Shown piece after piece: positions 16,867 through 33,170 of a DNA stretch of 64,000 bases. The stretch's first letter is position 1. Each line of letters opens with the position of its first letter. A program made the position numbers and the translations under genes. The stretch lies in assembly GCF_011058315.1 (NCBI RefSeq), contig NZ_CP049298.1:2480001-2544000 (forward strand). The letters are read 5' to 3'. Below the pieces are notes generated by a model that ran no database searches, was not told the origin of the DNA, and saw only the letters and a program-made list of their open reading frames with translations. Source of the DNA: Chryseobacterium sp. POL2 (GTDB taxonomy: Bacteria > Bacteroidota > Bacteroidia > Flavobacteriales > Weeksellaceae).

Positions 16867-17270
16867 TTTTAGTGGGGGAATAAAAGGGGGAATTAATGTT
16901 TATAATCCTTATGTGCTTTTCCTCTTAAATATTTTCCATAATTTTCATATCGAGAAACTTTTATTATTAAATATATATAATATTATCACAAAAAATATAT
17001 TGAATATTAGTTATTAAGATACATTGTCCAATAAACAAAACCTCTAAATCAACCAAGTCGGAATTTTGTTTACAACATTTAGCTATAGTTTTTTTTCTCA
17101 AAGATTTTAATTGATAAACCTTTAATCAATTAAAATAACAAATCCTTTGAAAATTGGATTCTAAAATTGTAGTATTATTTCTACAACAGTTATAGACAAT
17201 TTGTACATTTTCTTATTTTAAATATTTCTAGCTTCGTAACTCTAAATCTATCTTTTGAATTTTCAGTAAA
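16867..17270. other. Intergenic stretch: hairpin and palindrome, no gene
   Basis: About 400 nt of very AT-rich DNA with no convincing gene. It holds a GGGGGAATAAAAGGGGGAAT stretch just after the tRNA terminator, a perfect 11-bp inverted repeat (17105-17115 / 17125-17135) inside a longer imperfect stem (17098-17150), and a 20-bp palindrome (17167-17186) that recurs upstream of the histidine kinase gene. Confidence 0.6.
17167..17186. promoter_or_regulatory. Candidate operator, copy 1
   Basis: TTGTAGTATTATTTCTACAA: 6-bp inverted arms TTGTAG / CTACAA with an 8-nt centre. It matches the copy at 21671-21690 in 18 of 20 positions. It lies about 100 nt upstream of the small decayed gene at 17271 and 335 nt upstream of the lipocalin gene. 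Probably bound by the nearby LuxR-type response regulator (inference). Confidence 0.5.
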
Positions 17271-17477
17271 ATGAAAGAATCTTATTATTACATGAGAGGA
17301 AGAACCAAACCAGAGGTAATAGAACAAATGGGACAGGGTCTTAATTTGTTTGATTCTCATTTATGGACTTATAATGTCAACGGAAATTGGTTTTATTAAG
17401 ATTCGATTTTATATATCTATTTTGACGGAGAAATTGTGATACACTCTTTTTTCCGAAAATCTTTTAAATTATTTTGA
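17271..17477 (+). pseudogene. Small gene interrupted by an in-frame stop
   Basis: An ATG opens a 42-residue frame (MKESYYYMRGRTKPEVIEQ...) that ends in TAA at 17397-17399 right after NGNWFY. The same frame then continues for 25 codons (DSILYIYFDGEIVIHSFF...) to a TGA at 17477, and the sequence on both sides of the stop reads like one protein. One A-to-T change in a Lys codon would explain it. I do not recognise the family. Confidence 0.5.
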
Positions 17478-17501
17478 AAAATTAAAATAACTAATTATAA
17501 T

Positions 17502-17900
17502 ATGAAAACCTTATTAGCTTCCGCCATGACAATTTTGGTGATTGTTTCTTGCGATTCATCTTCCATAAAAAAAGCTTCTGAAAAAATACCTTATAAAAAT
17601 AATTCCCAAGAATTAGTTGGTAAATGGGTTCAACCAATTCCAGGACAAGAAAGTCAACTACAAGGTTTTGAATTAAAAACAGGCAATTCTGCGGAATCTA
17701 TTAATACCAATACGATCAAATATGAAAAATGGAAATTATCGAAAGACACGCTCTTTTTGTCTGGTCATACAGAAGGCGTTGCAGAACAGTCATCTTTTAC
17801 AGATACGCTTTTGATTAAAAATATATCGGATTCTGAGTTGGTTATTTCTTACAAAGGTAGTTCAGCAGGAGATGAGCAAACCTACCATAAAGAGAAATAA
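17502..17900 (+). CDS. Lipocalin-like lipoprotein
   Basis: 132 residues with a lipoprotein signal (VIVSCDSS, acylated Cys near 16) and a lipocalin-like domain opening with LVGKWVQPIPGQESQLQGFEL and containing KWKLSKDTLFLSGHTEG. This is the small bacterial lipocalin family seen in Bacteroidota, presumed to bind a hydrophobic ligand at the outer membrane. Flanked on both sides by decayed small genes, so it may be the surviving member of an eroding cluster. Confidence 0.78.
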   Translation: MKTLLASAMTILVIVSCDSSSIKKASEKIPYKNNSQELVGKWVQPIPGQESQLQGFELKTGNSAESINTNTIKYEKWKLSKDTLFLSGHTEGVAEQSSFTDTLLIKNISDSELVISYKGSSAGDEQTYHKEK

Positions 17901-17903
17901 TCT

Positions 17904-18046
17904 ATGTTGAGAAATATATTTTTTGCTTCTACACTTTCTATCTGTTTTCAAATTACAATGGCACAAGATTCCATTCCAATGATACTTCTGCGATAGAAAA
18001 AATAGATTTTATTTCCTTAGGATTAAAACTGACAGCTTATTTCTGA
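17904..18046 (+). pseudogene. Decayed secreted-protein gene (frameshift)
   Basis: An ATG three nt after the lipocalin stop opens a signal peptide (MLRNIFFASTLSICFQ, then TMAQD), but the frame ends after 30 residues. Just after the AQD codons another frame continues sensibly (FHSNDTSAIEKIDFISLGL...) to a TGA at 18046. This pattern fits a single-base indel near 17962 in a small secreted protein, probably truncated as well. Confidence 0.4.
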
Positions 18047-18068
18047 GGAAAATCAAATTAGGAATGAC

Positions 18069-18099
18069 AAAAATCACTTGCAGAAGTGGTTTTTTATTT
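18069..18099 (+). terminator. Terminator after the lipocalin region
   Basis: AAAATCACTT / AAGTGGTTTT stem with a 4-nt loop and T run; it sits just before the end of the opposing regulator gene. Confidence 0.6.
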
Positions 18100-18107
18100 T
18101 AAGAAAA

Positions 18108-18722
18108 TTAATGAAGTTTCTTTTTGAATTGCATCAACCCAAAGAGATTATCAACATCTAGCTTTTCGAAAATTCTTTTTTTATAAGTGCTTATAGTTGT
18201 TGCTTTTATTCCCATTATATTAGATATTTCGAGGTTTCCATTTCCTTCTGTGAGAAGATTAAATATTTGTAGTTCTCTCTCGGATAACTTTTCGATAGGA
18301 TTTCGTTTTTTTATTTGCTGTGCAATGATACCCACGAGTTGCTGTGGAAAATAGTAACCGAAAGTCAGCATCTCATTTACTGCTTTCACAATCTCTTTTT
18401 CATTGGCCATTTTATTGAGAAAACCATCGGCTCCTTCGCGGATGTATTGTATTGCAATGTCATTGTCTGTGTAAGAAGTATACATCAGAATCTTAACATT
18501 ATTTGCAAGTCCTTTCAATTCCGAAATCATTTTTTTGTTGGTAGTGTCAGGAAGATCTATATCCAAAAGAATCAGGTCATATTCACTTGCTCTAACTTTG
18601 GCAAGTGCTTCCTGATATGATGAAACTTGATTTATTTCCAAATTTTTGATATTGCTGTGAAGAATTAAGGAGGTTCCTGCCCTCACTACATAATGATCAT
18701 CAATTATTAATACTTTTTTCAT
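18108..18722 (-). CDS. LuxR/NarL-type response regulator
   Basis: 204 residues. The receiver domain occupies about 1-120, with acidic pocket IIDDH, phospho-acceptor Asp in LILLDIDLPD (near 54), and conserved Thr/Ser and Lys positions. A GerE/LuxR helix-turn-helix fills the C-terminal 65 residues (LSERELQIFNLLTEG, then ISTYKKRIFEKL). The frame is open 24 codons further upstream, but that lies inside the kinase gene; MKKVLIIDDH is the normal start. It overlaps the end of the kinase gene by 23 nt, so the two are a translationally coupled two-component pair. Likely regulates the divergent glycosidase operon. Confidence 0.9.
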   Translation of the reverse strand: MKKVLIIDDHYVVRAGTSLILHSNIKNLEINQVSSYQEALAKVRASEYDLILLDIDLPDTTNKKMISELKGLANNVKILMYTSYTDNDIAIQYIREGADGFLNKMANEKEIVKAVNEMLTFGYYFPQQLVGIIAQQIKKRNPIEKLSERELQIFNLLTEGNGNLEISNIMGIKATTISTYKKRIFEKLDVDNLFGLMQFKKKLH

Positions 18723-21624
18723 TGGGAGAGTTTTTGAAAGTGATCTGTACTTCAGTTCCTTTAGGGGTGTTTTTTTTAAACAAAATAGTAGCATCCAGCT
18801 TTTTTATCAATTGGATAACCAAATTAAGACCTAATCTTATATTCTTTAAATTTAAGCTTTCATCGACATCTATACTGGATAAGGCGTTATAGTGATTTAT
18901 CTGATCGTCCCTCATTCCAATTCCCCAATCGCTTATCAAAAGTGTGGTTTGTCCCAGTTCGTTGGGACCCCGCTTAATTTCAATCTTACTATTTTCAGAA
19001 TTCTTGATAGCATTATCCAAAATATTGTGAATTATAACAGAAAGCATATTTTTTTTTGTTTTGATGGAAAGCAATGGCGCTATATCATTTGAAACTACGA
19101 TATTCTTCTGTTTGGCTATTTCATAGAACAATAATCTTTTTTCTTCCACTATATCATAAATATTACAAATCTCGTATGAATCGGAATTTTTAAACAACTG
19201 TGCATAATCTTTCATGTCTGAAGTGAATTTGTAGAGCTCTTCAGAAGACTTGTGTATGCTGTCAAAATACAGCCTTTGAATGTCCGGATCATTCGATTCT
19301 ATTATTTTTTGAGATAAATCTGAGATAAACTTTAATGGTGTTGTGATATCGTGTGAAATAGTTTCCATCAATCTTTTCTGATAATCGGATTCTGTTGCCA
19401 GTTGTTTTTTGAGTTTTTGATTTTTGCCAGACAAACGTTTCGTCCTGAAATAGATAATCCATAAAATAATTAGGAAAGCCACAATAGCAATGATGAAATG
19501 AAACAAATTGGTCTCGTAGAAAAAAGGAACCACTTCCAGATCGACAGTTTTGTAGTCATAGCCGAATCCTGTGTAAACTCTGAAGGTAAATTTATATTTC
19601 CCGGGCTTCAAATTGAAGACATCTAATTTTCTTTGTTGTTTCAAATCTTTCCACTCTCCTTGGTCATCCTGTTTTACACTCAGCTGTAGATTTTTTTGAT
19701 TGCCGTAATATGGGATGTCGAGCAAGATTTCCAGGTGTTCAAAATCGCTTTTTAAGCTTATATTTTTATTAAAGCTCTCAATTTCCCCGTTATTGATCCT
19801 TATCCTTTCTACAAGCAATTCCCCTTTTTTTGGATAATATGATTTTATATCAAATGGATTGAATATCAAAAAACCGTTAAAAGATGGAAATACAAAATCG
19901 CCATTTTCAAGTTGAAAGGCATTGGGAAGCGAACCTCCATTCAATTCATTATTGAGCAAACCATTTCCTGTGTCGTATCGATAATAGATAGGTTTCTCCT
20001 TCTTGTTTTTCAGGAAATTTGATATCTCCTTTTTTGATATTTTGAAAAGACCGTTATTTGAAGATATCCACCAAAAACCTTGTGGATCCTCCAAAATATA
20101 GTGAGCAGTCAAAAGTGCGTTATCACGATCAGGGGTAATCTGGATTAATTTGGAAGATTTGAAAAGAAAAAATCCTTGGTTCTTCGTTGTTATCCAACAT
20201 GTTCCATCTTTATTTTTAATGATATGCTTAACAGTAATTCTGTCATAGATTTTCGTAATCTTTCTAGCTTTTAAAGAAACTTTGTATAGTTCATCCGTAG
20301 TTCCGACCAAAAGGTGGTCATTATCAATATAACAAACACTTGTAACTTCCCTTGTGAAACGAAATTGAAAAGCGGGCTCTAGAAATTGAGTGTCGGTATA
20401 CAAGCATAAAAAATTATTATTACTCATGTCTGTTGTAGCAACAGCATAGTATTGTTCTACTTTTCTTAAAATCTTTATTACACATTTACCAAAATTTATT
20501 TCTTCAGATTTTTGATAATTCTTGTTTTTCAGTAATCGTTCGAGAGTGTTGGTTTTTTCGCGTAGAATATTCTCATTTTCATCATACATCATAAGAAATG
20601 TATTGCCTTCTATTTTAGGAAAGTGGTAGTCTTTTCTGAGACCATTTTTATCAAGTTCTTGTCCATTTGGAGTAATAAAAGTAGTGCTACTGAAAGGCAA
20701 AGAAGAATATGCAACATAATCCTCAGGTATATTTTTAAAATTGTAGGGAGACAGGATGTTTAGACCTTTTGTCAAACTTCCAATATAAATCTTATTGTAA
20801 TCTTTATCGTAAAAAATACAATGGTATGGGTTTTTTATATCGTTGTGGGTTATCAATAATTTGAAATTCAGATGATTATTTCTGAGATCTCCTATGTACA
20901 ATTTGTCGTTATTGATAATAAAAACCTGTCCTGTAGTTTGTTGCCAATGGATTTTTGATTCTGGATCGAGAAGAATTGCTGGACAAGGAATTTCCAAAAG
21001 TTCACCTTTTTTTATTGCGAATAACTTTTTCTGTTCCTGATTTCGTATCAATAAAACGTCATTAAATGCAAAAGCATTTCTTAGATTGACATAAGGGATA
21101 TTCAAAGTTTTGTGTATATCGCCTCTTTCGTAATCTATCCGATTTCCATCGGTAAAGAAATATCTTTCCTTTTCAAAACTGATAAAGTAATCAGTATTAT
21201 TGTTGTAATATAGACCCTCTGAAGAGGTTTTGTTAAATATTGAAAATCCTTTTCCCTTTCTATTTAATTTATTTCTGGTGATTTTTCTATTTTCAAATTT
21301 TTGTAATTCTCTATTTTTAAGAATGAGCTTTTTACCGTGCAAATCACCAAATATGATAATGCTGTCTTTTTCCACGCTCCCGTAGAAGTCGCCCAAATGA
21401 GAATTGGATAAGCCAGAGTTTTTGTACTTTTCAAGTTTATAGCCATCATATCTTAAAACATTATTCTCTGTGGTAATCCAGATAAAACCATACTTGTCCT
21501 TTACAATATCCTTTACACTATTCTGAGGAAGTCCATTCTCCATATTATACCGAAGTGTAGTATAATTTTGTGCATTGGAGGAAAGCGTTAAGATAAATAA
21601 TAAAAGGATAAAAATATATCTCAT
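18700..21624 (-). CDS. Sensor histidine kinase with two-component propeller sensor
   Basis: 974 residues. A signal sequence (1-18) is followed by a large periplasmic sensor of repeated propeller blades (for example DKYGFIWITTENNVLRYDG and DPQGFWWISSNNGLFKIS), then a Y_Y_Y domain before one transmembrane helix (about 706-725). The cytoplasmic kinase has phospho-acceptor His in SHDITTPL (near 758), an N-box HNILDNAIKNS and a G-box DWGIGM. Unlike classical hybrid systems of Bacteroidota gut species, there is no fused receiver or AraC domain; the regulator is a separate gene. Such propeller sensors usually detect carbohydrate fragments. A -7 box and a 20-bp palindrome lie directly upstream. Confidence 0.92.
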   Translation of the reverse strand: MRYIFILLLFILTLSSNAQNYTTLRYNMENGLPQNSVKDIVKDKYGFIWITTENNVLRYDGYKLEKYKNSGLSNSHLGDFYGSVEKDSIIIFGDLHGKKLILKNRELQKFENRKITRNKLNRKGKGFSIFNKTSSEGLYYNNNTDYFISFEKERYFFTDGNRIDYERGDIHKTLNIPYVNLRNAFAFNDVLLIRNQEQKKLFAIKKGELLEIPCPAILLDPESKIHWQQTTGQVFIINNDKLYIGDLRNNHLNFKLLITHNDIKNPYHCIFYDKDYNKIYIGSLTKGLNILSPYNFKNIPEDYVAYSSLPFSSTTFITPNGQELDKNGLRKDYHFPKIEGNTFLMMYDENENILREKTNTLERLLKNKNYQKSEEINFGKCVIKILRKVEQYYAVATTDMSNNNFLCLYTDTQFLEPAFQFRFTREVTSVCYIDNDHLLVGTTDELYKVSLKARKITKIYDRITVKHIIKNKDGTCWITTKNQGFFLFKSSKLIQITPDRDNALLTAHYILEDPQGFWWISSNNGLFKISKKEISNFLKNKKEKPIYYRYDTGNGLLNNELNGGSLPNAFQLENGDFVFPSFNGFLIFNPFDIKSYYPKKGELLVERIRINNGEIESFNKNISLKSDFEHLEILLDIPYYGNQKNLQLSVKQDDQGEWKDLKQQRKLDVFNLKPGKYKFTFRVYTGFGYDYKTVDLEVVPFFYETNLFHFIIAIVAFLIILWIIYFRTKRLSGKNQKLKKQLATESDYQKRLMETISHDITTPLKFISDLSQKIIESNDPDIQRLYFDSIHKSSEELYKFTSDMKDYAQLFKNSDSYEICNIYDIVEEKRLLFYEIAKQKNIVVSNDIAPLLSIKTKKNMLSVIIHNILDNAIKNSENSKIEIKRGPNELGQTTLLISDWGIGMRDDQINHYNALSSIDVDESLNLKNIRLGLNLVIQLIKKLDATILFKKNTPKGTEVQITFKNSPNEKSINN

Positions 21625-21642
21625 AGAAATAAATAACTTCTA

Positions 21643-21650
21643 CAAATTTA
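21643..21650 (-). promoter_or_regulatory. Candidate -7 box for the kinase-regulator operon
   Basis: Reads TAAATTTG on the minus strand, 18 nt upstream of the kinase start codon. It lacks a good -33 element; the palindrome at 21671-21690 sits where one would be expected, which fits an activated promoter. Confidence 0.45.
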
Positions 21651-21670
21651 ACATAATAATTCAAGCTAAT

Positions 21671-21690
21671 TTGTAGTACTAATTCTACAA
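21671..21690. promoter_or_regulatory. Candidate operator, copy 2
   Basis: TTGTAGTACTAATTCTACAA, inverted arms TTGTAG / CTACAA. Its centre is about 43 nt upstream of the predicted kinase transcription start, the usual place of a class II activator. A half site TTCTACAA lies at 21638-21645. Located in the divergent region between the kinase and the GH3 gene. Copy 1 is at 17167-17186. Confidence 0.55.
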
Positions 21691-21854: not shown

Positions 21855-24323
21855 ATGAAAAAAAGTATGTCTTCACTAATCCAATTTTCGAAAAAAACAA
21901 AGTCCAAAGGGCTTTTTCTCGCTCTTTTATCCACGTCTTCTTTTGCAAATGCTCAAAACACTATCCCCACTATAACAGTTGCTGGAAAATCATTTAAAGA
22001 TCTAAATAAAAATGGGAAGCTCGATATATGGGAAGATACCCGGCTTCCGGTAGATAAAAGAATAGACGCAATCATCCCTCAGATGACAAACGAAGAAAAA
22101 GCAGATCTTTTAATAGGAACAGGAATGCCTGGTGTTGAGGCTCTTGTTGGTTCAGTAGGACCGGCTAAACAGGGGCTGGTTCCAGGAGCCGCTGGAGGCA
22201 CTTCTGATTTGGAAAGATTTGGTATTCCTGCAACAGTCCTCTCAGACGGCCCCGCAGGTTTACGAATAGAATCTACAAGAAAAAACGACCCGAATACATA
22301 CTATGCAACAGCTTTTCCCGTGGGAACATCATTAGCATCAACTTGGAACAAAGATCTGTTGGAGCAAGTTGGAAAAGCAATGGGTAATGAAGTGAAAGAA
22401 TATGGTGTAGACGTCCTCTTGTCCCCTGGCATGAACATTCATCGAAATCCCTTGAACGGGAGAAACTTCGAATATTATTCGGAAGATCCTTTGATTGCTG
22501 GCAAAACGGCAGCTGCTATTGTGAACGGAATACAATCTCACGGTGTAGGTACATCCATCAAACATTTTGTTGCAAATAACGAGGAAACCAATCGTTCTAC
22601 CATCAACGCACACGTTTCTGAAAGAGCTTTAAGAGAATTGTATCTGAGAGGTTTTGAAATTGCCGTAAAAGAGTCTAACCCTTGGACGATTATGACATCA
22701 TACAACAAACTTAATGGCGAATATACATCTACTAGAAAAGATTTGTTGACTCAGATTCTTAGAAATGAGTGGGGATTTAAAGGAATTGTAATGACAGATT
22801 GGTTCGGAGGTTTTCCAGGATTTGAATCTATTAAAAGTGGTCACATATCCGATGTTGTGAAACAAATGGAGGCAGGAAACGATCTTTTAATGCCGGGAAT
22901 TCCAACTCAGAAAAAAGCACTTGTAGATGCATTAAATTCGGGAGCATTATCGCAAGAAGTGGCAAATACTAACGTCAAGAGAATGCTGAGGTACATTTTC
23001 GGAACGCCCACTTTTGCCCAATATAGATACAGCAATAAACCCAATCTTGATCAAAATGCAGAGGTTACAAGAAACGCAGCCGCTGAAGGAATGGTCTTGC
23101 TGAAAAATGAAAATAATGCATTGCCTTTTTCCGTCACAAACAAAGAAATCTCACTCTTTGGAGTTACTTCATACATATGGAACACAGGTGGAACAGGTAG
23201 TGGAAGTGTGAACAATAAACATACCGTTTCTCTCTTGGAAGGTCTTACTTCCGCTGGTTACAAATTGGATGCAGAATTAGTAAATCTCTACCAACCTTTT
23301 ACAAAAAAGGAATCTACAGATGAGGATAATAGAAGAGCAAGAGAGTTTGCTAGCGGAAAGTTACCTGTTCCTAAAAGACTGGTCGAGATGCCTCTGAACG
23401 ATAATTTGCTTGCGAAAAAAGCGGAAACTTCGGAAATCGCTTTTGTGACTTTAGGACGAAATTCTGGAGAAGGGCGTGACAGGGTTGTTGATGAAGATTT
23501 CAATCTTGCGGTAGATGAGTTAGAAATGTTGGATAAGATTTCCAAAGCTTTTCATGCAAAAGGTAAAAAAGTCGTTGTTATCTTAAATGTTGCTGGAGTT
23601 ATAGAAACGGCCTCTTGGAAAGATAAAGTTGATGCTATATTATTAGCATGGGAACCAGGGCAGGAAGGCGGACATTCGGTGGCAGATGTAGTTTCAGGAC
23701 AAGTCAATCCTTCGGGAAAACTTACAATGACGTTCCCTATGAAATATTCCGACACTCCTTCGGCAAAGAATTTCCCGGGTGTTCCAGCAGAGAATCCATC
23801 AGAAGTAACGTATGAGGAGGGTATTTATGTTGGTTATCGTTACTTCAATACTTTCAATGTCAAACCTTCTTATGAGTTTGGTTACGGAAAATCTTATACA
23901 GATTTCTCCTATTCAAATATTAAAATCAATTCTAAAGTTTTTAATAAAAATTTAACGATCAGCATCAATATTAAAAATACGGGAAAAGTAATTGGGAAAG
24001 AGGTTGTGCAATTATATCTTTCAGCGCCAAACAAATCTATAGATAAACCAAAATCTGAACTAAAAGCTTTTGCTAAAACGAAAAATTTGAAACCTGGCGA
24101 ATCTCAAACCATCACAATGACTTTATCCCCTAAAGATTTAGCATCATTTGTACCAGCAAAATCGGCGTGGATTGCAGAAGCAGGGCGTTACAAAATTTCT
24201 GTAGGTGCATCATCTTTGGATATCAAGCATACTATAGATTTTTCTGTTCCGAAGGAATTAAATGTAGAAAAAGTACAACATGCTTTTGCAGCAGACAAAC
24301 AATTTGAAGATTTGAAACCCTAA
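21855..24323 (+). CDS. bglX: Glycoside hydrolase family 3 beta-glucosidase
   Basis: 822 residues with a signal peptide (cut near FANAQ). Soon after comes a calcium-loop-like stretch DLNKNGKLDIWED. The GH3 N-terminal barrel follows with the catalytic nucleophile Asp in GIVMTDWFGG (near 315) and the conserved KHFVANNEE. Then the GH3 C-terminal domain (AAEGMVLLKNE...) and a fibronectin III-like domain (VVQLYLSAPN, near 720-815) close the protein. Periplasmic or outer-membrane beta-glucosidase cutting beta-linked gluco-oligosaccharides; the exact linkage is not readable. First gene of a GH3-GH1-porin operon opposite the kinase gene. Confidence 0.92.
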   Translation: MKKSMSSLIQFSKKTKSKGLFLALLSTSSFANAQNTIPTITVAGKSFKDLNKNGKLDIWEDTRLPVDKRIDAIIPQMTNEEKADLLIGTGMPGVEALVGSVGPAKQGLVPGAAGGTSDLERFGIPATVLSDGPAGLRIESTRKNDPNTYYATAFPVGTSLASTWNKDLLEQVGKAMGNEVKEYGVDVLLSPGMNIHRNPLNGRNFEYYSEDPLIAGKTAAAIVNGIQSHGVGTSIKHFVANNEETNRSTINAHVSERALRELYLRGFEIAVKESNPWTIMTSYNKLNGEYTSTRKDLLTQILRNEWGFKGIVMTDWFGGFPGFESIKSGHISDVVKQMEAGNDLLMPGIPTQKKALVDALNSGALSQEVANTNVKRMLRYIFGTPTFAQYRYSNKPNLDQNAEVTRNAAAEGMVLLKNENNALPFSVTNKEISLFGVTSYIWNTGGTGSGSVNNKHTVSLLEGLTSAGYKLDAELVNLYQPFTKKESTDEDNRRAREFASGKLPVPKRLVEMPLNDNLLAKKAETSEIAFVTLGRNSGEGRDRVVDEDFNLAVDELEMLDKISKAFHAKGKKVVVILNVAGVIETASWKDKVDAILLAWEPGQEGGHSVADVVSGQVNPSGKLTMTFPMKYSDTPSAKNFPGVPAENPSEVTYEEGIYVGYRYFNTFNVKPSYEFGYGKSYTDFSYSNIKINSKVFNKNLTISINIKNTGKVIGKEVVQLYLSAPNKSIDKPKSELKAFAKTKNLKPGESQTITMTLSPKDLASFVPAKSAWIAEAGRYKISVGASSLDIKHTIDFSVPKELNVEKVQHAFAADKQFEDLKP

Positions 24324-24349
24324 TTATTAGTAATTAAAATTAAATTATA

Positions 24350-25786
24350 ATGAAAAAAACAATTAACAGGCGAGATTTCATGAAAGCAAGTTCTCTTGCA
24401 GGATTAGGATTGATTGTTCCCAATGACCCTTTAACTACACTTTATAATTTAAATCTTGATGGTAAAAATGCTGTTTTTCCCAAAGATTTTTTGTGGGGTG
24501 TAGCAGCTTCTGGACCACAAACGGAAAGTCGCGAAGGACGCGGTCGTAGCAATTGGGATGTATTTATAGACAATGTTGGCGGATCTGCCGACGGAACAAA
24601 CAATATGCGGAACACCGAATTTGAAAAACGTTATCTCGATGAATTCAAGATGTTAAGAGATGCTGGAGTAAAAGCTTTCCGTTTTTCTTTCTCTTGGCCA
24701 AGAGTGCAACCAGAAACACCTGGAAGTCCTAATGCAAAAGCTATGTCATATTATGATAAGTTAATAGATGCAATGCTAGAACACGGTTTGGAGCCCGTTC
24801 CAACTTTGTTTCATTGGGATATGCCACTATGGGCAGGTGATTTTCTTAAAAGGGATATCAGCGACAAAATGCAAGATTATGCTGATATTATGTCACGGTT
24901 AGTAGGAAGTAGAGCAAAGACCTGGCTGGCCTTTAACGAGCCGAGCGTTATTGCCGCATTCGGTTATGGGAAAGGAACTTTTGCGCCGGGGTATCATTCA
25001 AAAAAAACAATGGGTGCTGCGATTCATCACATTAATGTATCACAGGCAAAAATATTTGAAGCTGTGAGGTCGAATGTACCTGCCGTGAAAATTGCTTCGG
25101 CTTTTAATATTATGCCTTTTGAAGCTTTGTCCGGCAAAAAGGAAGATATTGATGCTGCTCATTTTGTTGATGTCCTTTGGAATCAGTCCTTTGCTGACCC
25201 AACTTATGGATTAGGTTATCCCGATTTAATAAAGCCATTTGTAGAGCCTTATATAAAGGACGGAGACCTAAATTTTATAGCTTCAAAACCAGATTTTTTT
25301 GGCGTTAATTTCTACTCGAGAACCTTTGTCAAAGCAGATAATGATAAACATTCAATACTTGGGACAATTCCTATTGCACCGCCATCAGAATTGGAAAAAA
25401 CTCAGGAATTTCCTTATGATCCTAACACATATACCAAAATATTATTGGATATAGATAAAAAATATGGTCAGCCAGATATCTTGGCAACAGAGTTTGGTTT
25501 TGCAATCGAGGAGGATAAGCCGATAAACGGTATTTTGAATGATCCACAACGTATCAAATATATCCAAGGGTATATCAAAGCTGCTCAAGAAGCAGTTAAG
25601 AAAGGAGTAAAACTCAAAGGCATGATGTATTGGTCTTCAACAGATAATTGGGAATGGACATTAGGTCTGAGTCACCATTTCGGCTTGATCCATATTGATA
25701 AAAATACCTTGGAGCGTATTCCAAAGAAAAGTCTTGAGTATTATGGGAAATGTATCAAGGTAAACGCTGCAGCGGATGTTAGATAA
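24350..25786 (+). CDS. Glycoside hydrolase family 1 beta-glucosidase with Tat signal
   Basis: 478 residues. The N terminus carries a twin-arginine signal (NRRDFMKASSLAGLGL), uncommon for GH1, so the enzyme is probably exported folded. The GH1 barrel shows FLWGVAASGPQTE, acid/base Glu in AFNEPS (near 197), nucleophile Glu in LATEFGF (near 381, where most GH1 enzymes have ENG) and the closing YWSSTDNWEW / FGLIHIDKNTLERIPKKS segment. Hydrolyses beta-glucosides or related glycosides. It lies 26 nt behind the GH3 gene, in one transcript. Confidence 0.92.
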   Translation: MKKTINRRDFMKASSLAGLGLIVPNDPLTTLYNLNLDGKNAVFPKDFLWGVAASGPQTESREGRGRSNWDVFIDNVGGSADGTNNMRNTEFEKRYLDEFKMLRDAGVKAFRFSFSWPRVQPETPGSPNAKAMSYYDKLIDAMLEHGLEPVPTLFHWDMPLWAGDFLKRDISDKMQDYADIMSRLVGSRAKTWLAFNEPSVIAAFGYGKGTFAPGYHSKKTMGAAIHHINVSQAKIFEAVRSNVPAVKIASAFNIMPFEALSGKKEDIDAAHFVDVLWNQSFADPTYGLGYPDLIKPFVEPYIKDGDLNFIASKPDFFGVNFYSRTFVKADNDKHSILGTIPIAPPSELEKTQEFPYDPNTYTKILLDIDKKYGQPDILATEFGFAIEEDKPINGILNDPQRIKYIQGYIKAAQEAVKKGVKLKGMMYWSSTDNWEWTLGLSHHFGLIHIDKNTLERIPKKSLEYYGKCIKVNAAADVR

Positions 25787-25826
25787 GTTAAAACTAAATA
25801 ATAAAAACAATTTTAAATAAATTTTC

Positions 25827-26540
25827 ATGAAATCAATATTACTTTCATTACTTTTCTTGGGCACGGCAACATCTCTTTTTTCTCAGCAAAATAATGCAAA
25901 TGAAAACATAGATCCATCCAAGCCTACCAACTTATACACGCAGGTAAATGTGCAGGCTGAACTCAACTCTTACAAAGGGTTCAGTACATACGGAACGCGA
26001 CTTAATTTCCAATATGCCCTTAACCCAGATAATTTGATTCTTGCTGAGGTTCCTTTTCTGTATAATTCAGAAACAAAAAAGTTTGGCTTGTCGGATACCA
26101 GAGTCAGATATTTTAACGTGCAGAGAATGAACAGCAATAAGTTGTTTGCATTGGCTCCCTTTGTAGACATCTATATGCCTACAGGAAAGTCTGCTCACGG
26201 CTTGGGTGGGGGAACATGGTCTTTGTCAGCTGGTTTAATTGCTGGTTTGGGTTTTTCTAAAAATGTTTCTATGTTTCCGGGCGTAAGCTATGTGTATCTT
26301 ACCGAGAGTGGAAAAAGCGGGATGCAGATTCAGTCTAATGTAAGCTTGAAATTCAGTGATAATACGTTTGTATTTGTTAATCCAAGTGCAATGTTTATTA
26401 ACTCGGGTGTAACTTGGCAAGGCGAATTAGATGTTAATCAAATTATTATACAAAATAAACTCAAAGGTAATATCGGATGGTTGCCTAATTTTACGAATAA
26501 GGTAAACACTTTCAGAATTGGTGTTACTTTCTTTATGTAA
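25827..26540 (+). CDS. Outer membrane beta-barrel protein of the glycosidase operon
   Basis: 237 residues with a signal peptide (about 1-19) and alternating beta strands throughout (YTQVNVQAELNSYKGFSTYGTRLNFQY and onward), ending in FRIGVTFFM with a near-terminal Phe as in outer membrane barrels. It lies 40 nt behind the GH1 gene, so it is probably the porin-like entry or exit route for the glycosides. I cannot assign a family. Confidence 0.7.
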   Translation: MKSILLSLLFLGTATSLFSQQNNANENIDPSKPTNLYTQVNVQAELNSYKGFSTYGTRLNFQYALNPDNLILAEVPFLYNSETKKFGLSDTRVRYFNVQRMNSNKLFALAPFVDIYMPTGKSAHGLGGGTWSLSAGLIAGLGFSKNVSMFPGVSYVYLTESGKSGMQIQSNVSLKFSDNTFVFVNPSAMFINSGVTWQGELDVNQIIIQNKLKGNIGWLPNFTNKVNTFRIGVTFFM

Positions 26541-26768: not shown

Positions 26769-28080
26769 TTATAATCTGAGCCTTTTGTCAAAAATAATCA
26801 TAAATTGGTTTAAAACAATTCCCCAATTGTGAATAAGCATTGTCCACTTCTTAGTAGATTCTTTGAGAGCTAAATAAACAGATTTCAACACGGCATCATC
26901 GGTAGGGAAAGACATTTTGTTTTTGGTATACTTTCTGATTTTCCCATTCAGATTTTCAATGAGATTAGTGGTATAAATGATTTTTCGAATTTCAAGTGGG
27001 AATTCAAAAAAGACGGTTAATTCATCCCAATTGTTTTTCCCAGATTGAATAGCGTACAAATATTTACTTTCCCACTTGGTTGCAAAATCTTCTAAAGCTG
27101 CTTTTGCAGCATCTTTGTTAGGTGCTGTATAAATGTGTTTCATGTCGGCAGAAAATTCTTTTCTATCCTTCCAGACTACATATTTACAAGCGTTCCTGAT
27201 TTGATGAACCACACAAATTTGAGTTTGAGATTCAGGGAAAACCGAGCGAATAGTCTGAGTAAAACCATTAAGATTATCAGTAGCTGTAATCAAAATATCC
27301 TCAACTCCACGAGCTTTTAAATCCGTTAAAACATTCATCCAAAAACTGGAAACTTTCGTTTTTTCCAAGCCACATACCAAGAACATCTTTTCGTCCTTCT
27401 CGGTTTAATCCAACGGCTAAGTAAATGGTTTTGTTGATGACTTTTGAGTTTTCTCTGACTTTAAAAACTATTCCATCCATCCAAACAATAAGATACAAAT
27501 CGTCTAACGGTCGGTTTTGCCAAGCAACTACTTCATTGGCAACAGCACTAGTAATTCTGGAAATGGTGGAGGTAGAAACATCAAAATCATACATTTCTTT
27601 AATCTGTTCTTCGATATCCGAAACGCTCATTCCTTTAGCATAAAACGAGATGATGATGTTCTCCAAACCATCAATAATATTGTGTCTTTTGGGAACTAAG
27701 GTGGGTTCAAAACTACCTTCACGGTCTCTGGGAACTTTAATCTCCGATTCTCCAAATGAGGATTTTATTTTCTTAGTTCCATGTCCGTTTCGGTAATTTC
27801 CACTTAATGTTTTTTCGTGTTTTTCATTGTCCAGATGGCTGTCTAATTCAGCATCTAGCATATGTTCTACTGCTTTTTTGTGCAGTTCTTTGAAAAAAGT
27901 GGTTAAATCTTCTCCATTCTTAAAGGACTTGTAAAAATCCTTGTTGTTTAATAATTCTTCTTTGTCGATCATAACTATGTAATGTTTAAAAATAGTAAAA
28001 AGTTATTTCCGAAAAATTATTTGAGCTTTGAGGGCTCATAATTTTTCAGAATAACTTTTCAACTTACACAGTTAGTGGGA
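26729..28080 (-). mobile_element. IS256-family insertion sequence
   Basis: About 1352 bp bounded by imperfect 28-bp terminal inverted repeats: 26729-26756 and 28053-28080, matching in 24 of 28 positions (outer TCCCA, inner AAGTT core). It carries one mutator-type transposase gene on the minus strand, which is frameshifted. The 8 bases on each side do not match, so no target duplication is visible; the copy is old, or recombined. It landed between the glycosidase operon and the histone-like gene. Confidence 0.85.
26769..27972 (-). pseudogene. IS256-family transposase, frameshifted
   Basis: Two overlapping frames together make a full-length (about 400-residue) mutator-type transposase. The N-terminal frame (27301-27972) has the first catalytic Asp in VWMDGIVFKV. 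The C-terminal frame (26769-27386) has the second Asp in ATDNLNGF and the Glu in [13 protein letters not shown]. The coding sequence around 27348-27353 reads AGTTTCC where an intact gene would read AGTTCC (giving NESSSFWMN), so one inserted base near 27350 breaks the frame. IS256 elements do not normally use programmed frameshifting, so this copy is probably inactive. Confidence 0.85.
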
Positions 28081-33077: not shown

Positions 33078-33170
33078 ATCTATGTTTTTTCTAGTTAGAT
33101 TTCTAATATACAAAATTGTTGTTAAATATCTACAATGCAATGTTTTGCATATAACAGACATGTTACAGCG

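Follow-up and report, generated by a model that had tools for sequence, protein, structure and literature searches.

Two closely similar 20-bp palindromes in the 64,000-nucleotide stretch of Chryseobacterium sp. POL2 DNA analyzed here (the window) are, with a probability of roughly 0.7, the operators of the LuxR/NarL-type response regulator encoded between them, through which it would activate both its own kinase operon and a neighboring unit comprising a decayed small gene and a lipocalin gene. From the comparisons below we infer that the regulator binds these sites, that binding depends on phosphorylation, and that the outcome is activation rather than repression. In the proposed scheme, a signal received by the Reg_prop sensor region of the kinase would lead to phosphorylation of the regulator, which would then dimerize on TTGTAGAA-N4-TTCTACAA, the dyad also carried by homologous kinase/regulator loci. 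A dimer at dyad 2, close to the kinase gene, would take the place of a missing -33 element and contact RNA polymerase, resulting in class II-like positive autoregulation of the kinase/regulator operon. A dimer at dyad 1, placed further upstream of its promoter on the same helical face, would activate the small-gene/lipocalin unit. The comparative evidence supports the core of an earlier sequence-only reading of this DNA, namely that these are regulator sites, that the one at the kinase promoter is positioned in a class II-like manner, and that a small regulon includes the lipocalin.

Table 1. Features of the proposed regulon; coordinates are those of the window unless a genome coordinate is given
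Feature	Coordinates	Strand	Remarks
Dyad operator 1 (putative), TTGTAGTATTATTTCTACAA	17167-17186	+	Upstream of small-gene remnant and lipocalin gene
Candidate -7 box, TATCTTTT	17249-17256	+	Dyad 1 ends 62 nt before it; differs from TAnnTTTG at one position; weak, predicted
Small-gene remnant	17271-17477	+	Roughly 68 codons, interrupted in frame by TAA at codon 43
Lipocalin_3 lipoprotein gene	17502-17900	+	Presumably served by dyad 1
LuxR/NarL-type response regulator, 204 aa	18108-18722	-	23-bp overlap with kinase gene
Sensor histidine kinase, 974 aa	18700-21624	-	Reg_prop-type sensor region, HisKA/HATPase_c core
Single half site	21638-21645	-	TTCTACAA on +, TTGTAGAA on -; overlaps -7 box
-7 box of kinase/regulator operon, TAAATTTG	21643-21650	-	Predicted start near 21638
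Dyad operator 2 (putative), TTGTAGTACTAATTCTACAA, minus-strand reading TTGTAGAATTAGTACTACAA	21671-21690	-	Kinase promoter, centre near -42.5
Putative small RNA region and dyad	G000:C1:1291144-1291345 (L001:1501-1700)		Beside paralogous kinase/LuxR-regulator pair

The palindromes and the kinase promoter

Direct reading of the sequence confirms the two palindromes: they are identical at 18 of 20 positions, their 6-bp arms (TTGTAG/CTACAA) are perfect, and in both the symmetry extends to the inner A8/T13 pair and the central TA. The regulator contains a receiver and a GerE/LuxR HTH domain (PF00072, 80 bits; PF00196, 54 bits; both over cut-off), and in the kinase the HATPase_c domain scores over its cut-off and HisKA slightly under (24.7 versus 26.9). 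The two genes overlap at 18700-18722 and form one operon. The centre of dyad 2 is situated 56 nt upstream of the kinase start, in the 230 bp that separate the kinase gene from a divergent GH3 gene, and exactly 20 nt separate the dyad from TAAATTTG. Given that the flavobacterial TAnnTTTG -7 box occupies positions -12 to -5 (PMC9723704), the dyad is predicted to be centred at -42.5, and no TTG of a -33 element was found 17-23 nt upstream of TAAATTTG. These observations agree with the sequence-only reading, which had placed the dyad about 43 nt upstream of the predicted start in lieu of the -33 element and had noted the half site over the -7 box, also present.

In the 3.24-Mb genome (a single contig), a search for TTGTAG-N8-CTACAA recovered three exact sites, namely the two of the window and one at G000:C1:1291144, as compared to four for a reversed control pattern. 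Allowing one mismatch raises the numbers to 14 sites and 30 for the control, and the window itself holds two exact and two weaker matches, with 3.1 expected at up to two mismatches. Hence, the count of the dyads alone is not above chance. Their placement is non-random: two exact sites within 4.5 kb constitute an event of about 2% by our own estimate from the genome counts, and the third lies beside a paralogous kinase/regulator pair, so that the palindrome cannot be described as common at random intergenic sites. Eight of the nine relatives searched contain 0-3 exact dyads per genome and the ninth contains eight, often with one at the kinase. The significance of the dyads therefore derives from their conservation in relatives and fixed promoter spacing rather than from their number.

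A weaker relative had also been proposed at 33116-33135; this sequence exists and agrees at 14 of 20 positions, but it behaves like a chance match, given the above genome count at one mismatch and the lack of a perfect TAnnTTTG at a characteristic distance. BlaI/MecI-type operators are TACTACA/TGTAGTA dyads. A site of this type was rejected for the window, where TGTAGTA is found on one arm only and the neighbors are the kinase, regulator, lipocalin and GH3 genes, with no blaI or mecI nearby.

Conservation of the dyad and co-variation with the regulator

Homologues of the kinase were recovered at about 80 loci (33-39% identity), nearly all from Chryseobacterium, and in almost all of them a regulator gene follows; one other genome of the genus contained no close homologue of either the kinase or GH3. 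The comparison of upstream regions suggested by the sequence-only reading revealed TTGTAG-N8-CTACAA (up to one mismatch) before 13 of 78 related kinase genes, versus a mean of 0.06 in shuffled sequences. In the closest clades the dyad is found at -68 or about -290. The versions from C. elymi and C. lathyri (L034-L036) reproduce the geometry of the window, with the dyad followed after 20 or 21 nt by TAATTTTG, and a larger sister clade retains a dyad near -290 amid otherwise diverged sequence, together with another near -445 that faces the divergent gene. Counting against the proposed link, the -290 dyad has been lost from about ten closest-clade members whose recognition helix is unchanged, although most of them keep another dyad near -445. 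Separately, alignment of L037-L056 and L113 uncovered an unusually conserved 5' leader, AAAATTTATTTTCAATCGTTCC...ACTTGTACAAAAACTATTATTAACCG, extending from about -150 to the start of the orthologous kinase, which is possibly a cis-acting RNA element or a second promoter.

Related dyads in other clades include TTGTGGATAAATGTTTACAA in tandem with ATGTAGAAAAAAATTCACAT at 22 bp, ATGTAGAAATAATTCTATGT and TTGTAGTTTATAAACGACAT. These operator subtypes pair with particular regulator HTH sequences: TTGTGGATAAATGTTTACAA with STVGTYKRRVYQKL, the TTGTAGTTTATAAACGACAT-type with STVSTYKARIYKKL, and the TTGTAGAA-type with the clade of the window. The subtype tracks the regulator clade even among paralogues within a single genome, as seen in C. 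indologenes (L041/L061/L084) and C. sediminis (L044/L057/L090). Clade E lacks a dyad at the kinase; instead, TGTAGAAAATTTTCTACA stands ahead of the gene next after the regulator, which encodes a secreted protein. Beside kinase clusters, genes for secreted surface proteins of the VGINTxxPGSTLDINGS / VGVGTATPxPSSLLDL type (L034:3489, L034:9735, L093:9633 and equivalents) likewise have dyads in front of them, and the scanned proteins match no Pfam model.

These patterns bear on the alternative that the dyads are recognized by an unlinked transcription factor governing the sensor system together with its cargo. Such a factor would fit the dyad-type sites at L135, L136 and L138, where there is no kinase in the short locus read and which occur near the control rate, and binding by the regulator is itself something that we infer. 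Yet the shift of operator subtype with regulator clade, including paralogues of one genome, the presence of the regulator gene as the constant DNA-binding partner beside the kinase in nearly all clusters, and the rarity of exact dyads in the genomes searched make such a factor unlikely.

Intergenic confinement and helical phasing

A matrix trained on 13 sites from relatives, with those of the window excluded (maximum 27.3), was run on the window and the relatives. Its two highest scores in the 64-kb window fall on the dyads at 17167 (23.7) and 21671 (22.1), and permuted palindromic matrices gave no hits of at least 18. Among the relatives, 97 hits of at least 14 are intergenic versus two in coding sequence, which accounts for four fifths of the bases.

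The distance between dyad and TAnnTTTG is similarly constrained. At kinase promoters it measures 19-21 nt, with a perfect N20 in the window, indicating a conserved site at the operon's own promoter in a position fit for activation. The 24-25 nt distances in part of one clade probably reflect overlapping TAnnTTTG sequences. After clustering of related promoters the spacings fall into classes of 19-21 (5), 28-34 (10), 41 (2) and 52-54 nt (18), those of about 31 and 52-54 nt being found at neighboring promoters; the matrix training set and these counts include related sequences, with lineages separated by simple clustering alone. The mean vector length is 0.68-0.72 at periods of 10.5-11 and the nominal Rayleigh p far below 0.001, for clusters that are not fully independent and include some clade D values of 31 read by eye. 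With TAnnTTTG at -12 to -5, the spacings correspond to dyad centres near -42, -53 and -74. Thus, as judged from these predicted promoters, the dyads share one helical face across promoter positions, of which that near -42 is the class II position.

A reading of the palindromes as RNA hairpins, or as sequence that is neutral or arose by chance, is contradicted by the conservation of the dyads, their score with the held-out matrix, their confinement to intergenic sequence and their fixed spacing; the exact genome count of three versus four for the control would be in keeping with such a reading, which we nevertheless regard as highly implausible. The same spacing data weigh on autorepression, whereby the regulator bound to the dyads would silence its own operon, for instance by covering the -35/-7 region and the half site. 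The overlap of that half site with the -7 box could be read in this manner. However, L034-L036 and clade B show no conservation of half sites over the -7 box. At the kinase promoter of the window and those related to it, a -33 TTG is absent and the dyad is centred between -41.5 and -43.5, and in-phase sites near -53 and -74 are used at other promoters, all of these positions being typical of activation. Autorepression is accordingly considered quite improbable.

A scan of the family for dyad-N19..23-TAnnTTTG returned 24 hits versus one for the control. Three of the hits are the above sites without a kinase nearby (L135, L136 and L138), four represent promoters from this family of kinases, and 17 contain a different type of palindrome. 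The latter, TTGTAGTAGAATTACTACAA-N20-TATCTTTG, is found in several copies per genome in L139-L143 and L145-L156, from two other genera of the family, and in the loci read it stands ahead of Hcp/TssD-like genes of type VI secretion. It represents another palindrome sharing the class II-like geometry.

Probable targets of the two dyads

Dyad 1 is located downstream of the kinase/regulator operon and before the decayed small gene and the Lipocalin_3 gene, as the sequence-only reading had stated. No perfect TAnnTTTG is present at a canonical distance from it, the only candidate being TATCTTTT at N62, a spacing in helical phase with 20, 31 and 52. In L089 an intact but weakly similar relative of the small gene (26% identity over 62 aa) and the orthologous kinase gene are arranged divergently, and a dyad separates the two. 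Furthermore, the lipocalin genes of clade D, a paralogous kinase clade, show ATGTAGTTTTATAACTACAA-like dyads that precede the start codon by about 260 nt and TAnTTTTG boxes by 31 nt. By this parallel, the lipocalin unit is most likely the target of dyad 1, which would support inclusion of the lipocalin in the regulon.

Dyad 2 could alternatively serve chiefly to control the divergent GH3/GH1/porin-like operon (21855-26540), as it lies within the intergenic region shared with that operon and TAATTTTA is found on the GH3 side, 42 nt from the dyad and in helical phase. Against this, all 11 GH3 orthologues (79-80% identity), which were recovered through GH3 and not through the kinase, are devoid of a dyad in the 420 nt upstream, their best matrix scores being at most 8.9 versus 22.1 for dyad 2. 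The divergent gene also varies among relatives, whereas the geometry on the kinase side is constant. Given these independently found orthologues, dyad 2 belongs to the kinase, and primary control of the GH3 operon is rather unlikely; additional control of GH3 in this strain via TAATTTTA is possible but unsupported. Just past this operon, two adjacent minus-strand ORFs (26769-27972) together resemble a frame-split insertion-sequence transposase.

A probable small RNA beside a paralogous pair

The third exact dyad of the genome is situated 13 nt past the stop codon of a paralogous regulator (33% identity) and is part of a perfect dyad-N52-TATATTTG arrangement; a search of the same genome for dyad-N52-TAnnTTTG with up to three mismatches gave counts equal to the control except for this one perfect case. 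Downstream of the dyad there is no ORF of at least 60 aa on that strand, and a terminator hairpin occurs about 115 nt after the predicted start. The predicted transcript contains repeated ACACAAATGATGA motifs in hairpin loops in addition to the terminator, with ACACAAAUGAUGA constituting the loop of the predicted RNA, which would be about 115 nt long and lie near positions 1291230-1291345 of G000:C1.

When the family was scanned for TGTAG-N8-CTACA-N52..54-TAnnTTTG, 84 of 320 genomes contained matches, and the control pattern matched about ten times overall. At those loci from the scan that were read, orthologous pairs precede a non-coding stretch with a recurring CACAAATGATGA (the small-RNA loci include L199, L202, L204, L205, L208, L210, L212, L215, L219 and others). 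This motif is represented by 18 copies in 15 of 21 predicted transcripts, versus 0.02 in shuffled sequences, and is absent from the reverse strand; at several loci it lies in a stem loop of which the stem sequence varies between species and the loop motif is constant. A strict double repeat was detected in two of 395 genomes of the order, and closely spaced perfect copies are thus rare. Searches against Rfam returned nothing at the gathering threshold in the window except tRNAs, and at the small-RNA loci no match at threshold, with chance-like matches below it. The above features suggest that the third dyad probably drives a repeat-bearing small RNA, which might function as a sponge RNA. A conserved flavobacterial small RNA, Rfp18 of Flavobacterium psychrophilum, affects protease mRNAs (PMC9723704).

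We tentatively extend the proposal, at less than even odds, to a single code, TGTAG-N8-CTACA, on one helical face near -42, -53 or -74, that would serve an expanded family of Weeksellaceae sensors with LuxR-type regulators. One branch of this family, represented in this genome at G000:C1:1290513-1291345, would make a small RNA with ACACAAATGATGA repeats in its loops, and could represent a Bacteroidota counterpart of Gac/Csr acting through a titrating RNA.

Comparison with known systems

The regulator shares its full-length architecture of receiver and GerE HTH with VraR (PDB: 7ve6), DevR (PDB: 3c3w), EvgA (PDB: 5f64) and NarL (PDB: 1a04), and differs from them in DNA site and regulated genes, with no close relative among solved structures. 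FimS/FimR of Porphyromonas gingivalis is a Bacteroidota sensor kinase with a LuxR-type regulator. The core of the window kinase resembles the FimS model, but at 50 bits versus a cut-off of 600, and the literature searched contained no comparable dyad. No studies of Chryseobacterium LuxR regulators or of such dyads were found, and no DNA recognition code for LuxR-type regulators of Chryseobacterium or its relatives is described in the literature searched. A helically phased dyad would make the regulons of dozens of uncharacterized sensor kinases readable from sequence, and the link between recognition helix and operator subtype becomes testable.

To our knowledge, this system has no link to CsrA, and we know of no Gac/Csr-like design in Bacteroidota. 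In Gammaproteobacteria, the GacA/UvrY box TGTAAG-N6-CTTACA lies upstream of the rsm/csr small RNAs, and the CsrB RNAs under UvrY/GacA follow a repeat-in-loop design (PMC3171408). The system described here is similar in having a LuxR/NarL-type regulator and, ahead of the target promoters, a palindromic box built of TGTA-type half sites, and the best NCBIfam hit of the regulator is UvrY/SirA/GacA, below the equivalog cut-off (107 versus 280 bits). Moreover, the dyad of the paralogous pair precedes a probable small RNA with repeats in its loops, as in CsrB. It differs in its TGTAG half site with N8 spacing (TTGTAG-N8-CTACAA), in the presence of an operator also at the kinase's own promoter, in the Bacteroidota -7 box, and, relative to BarA/GacS, in the Reg_prop-type sensor of the window kinase. 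Should it prove real, a repeat-bearing small RNA governed by this code would extend the Gac/Csr-like design to another phylum. On the whole, the dyad very probably adds a novel operator to a familiar type of system, of which one side branch is possibly more unusual.
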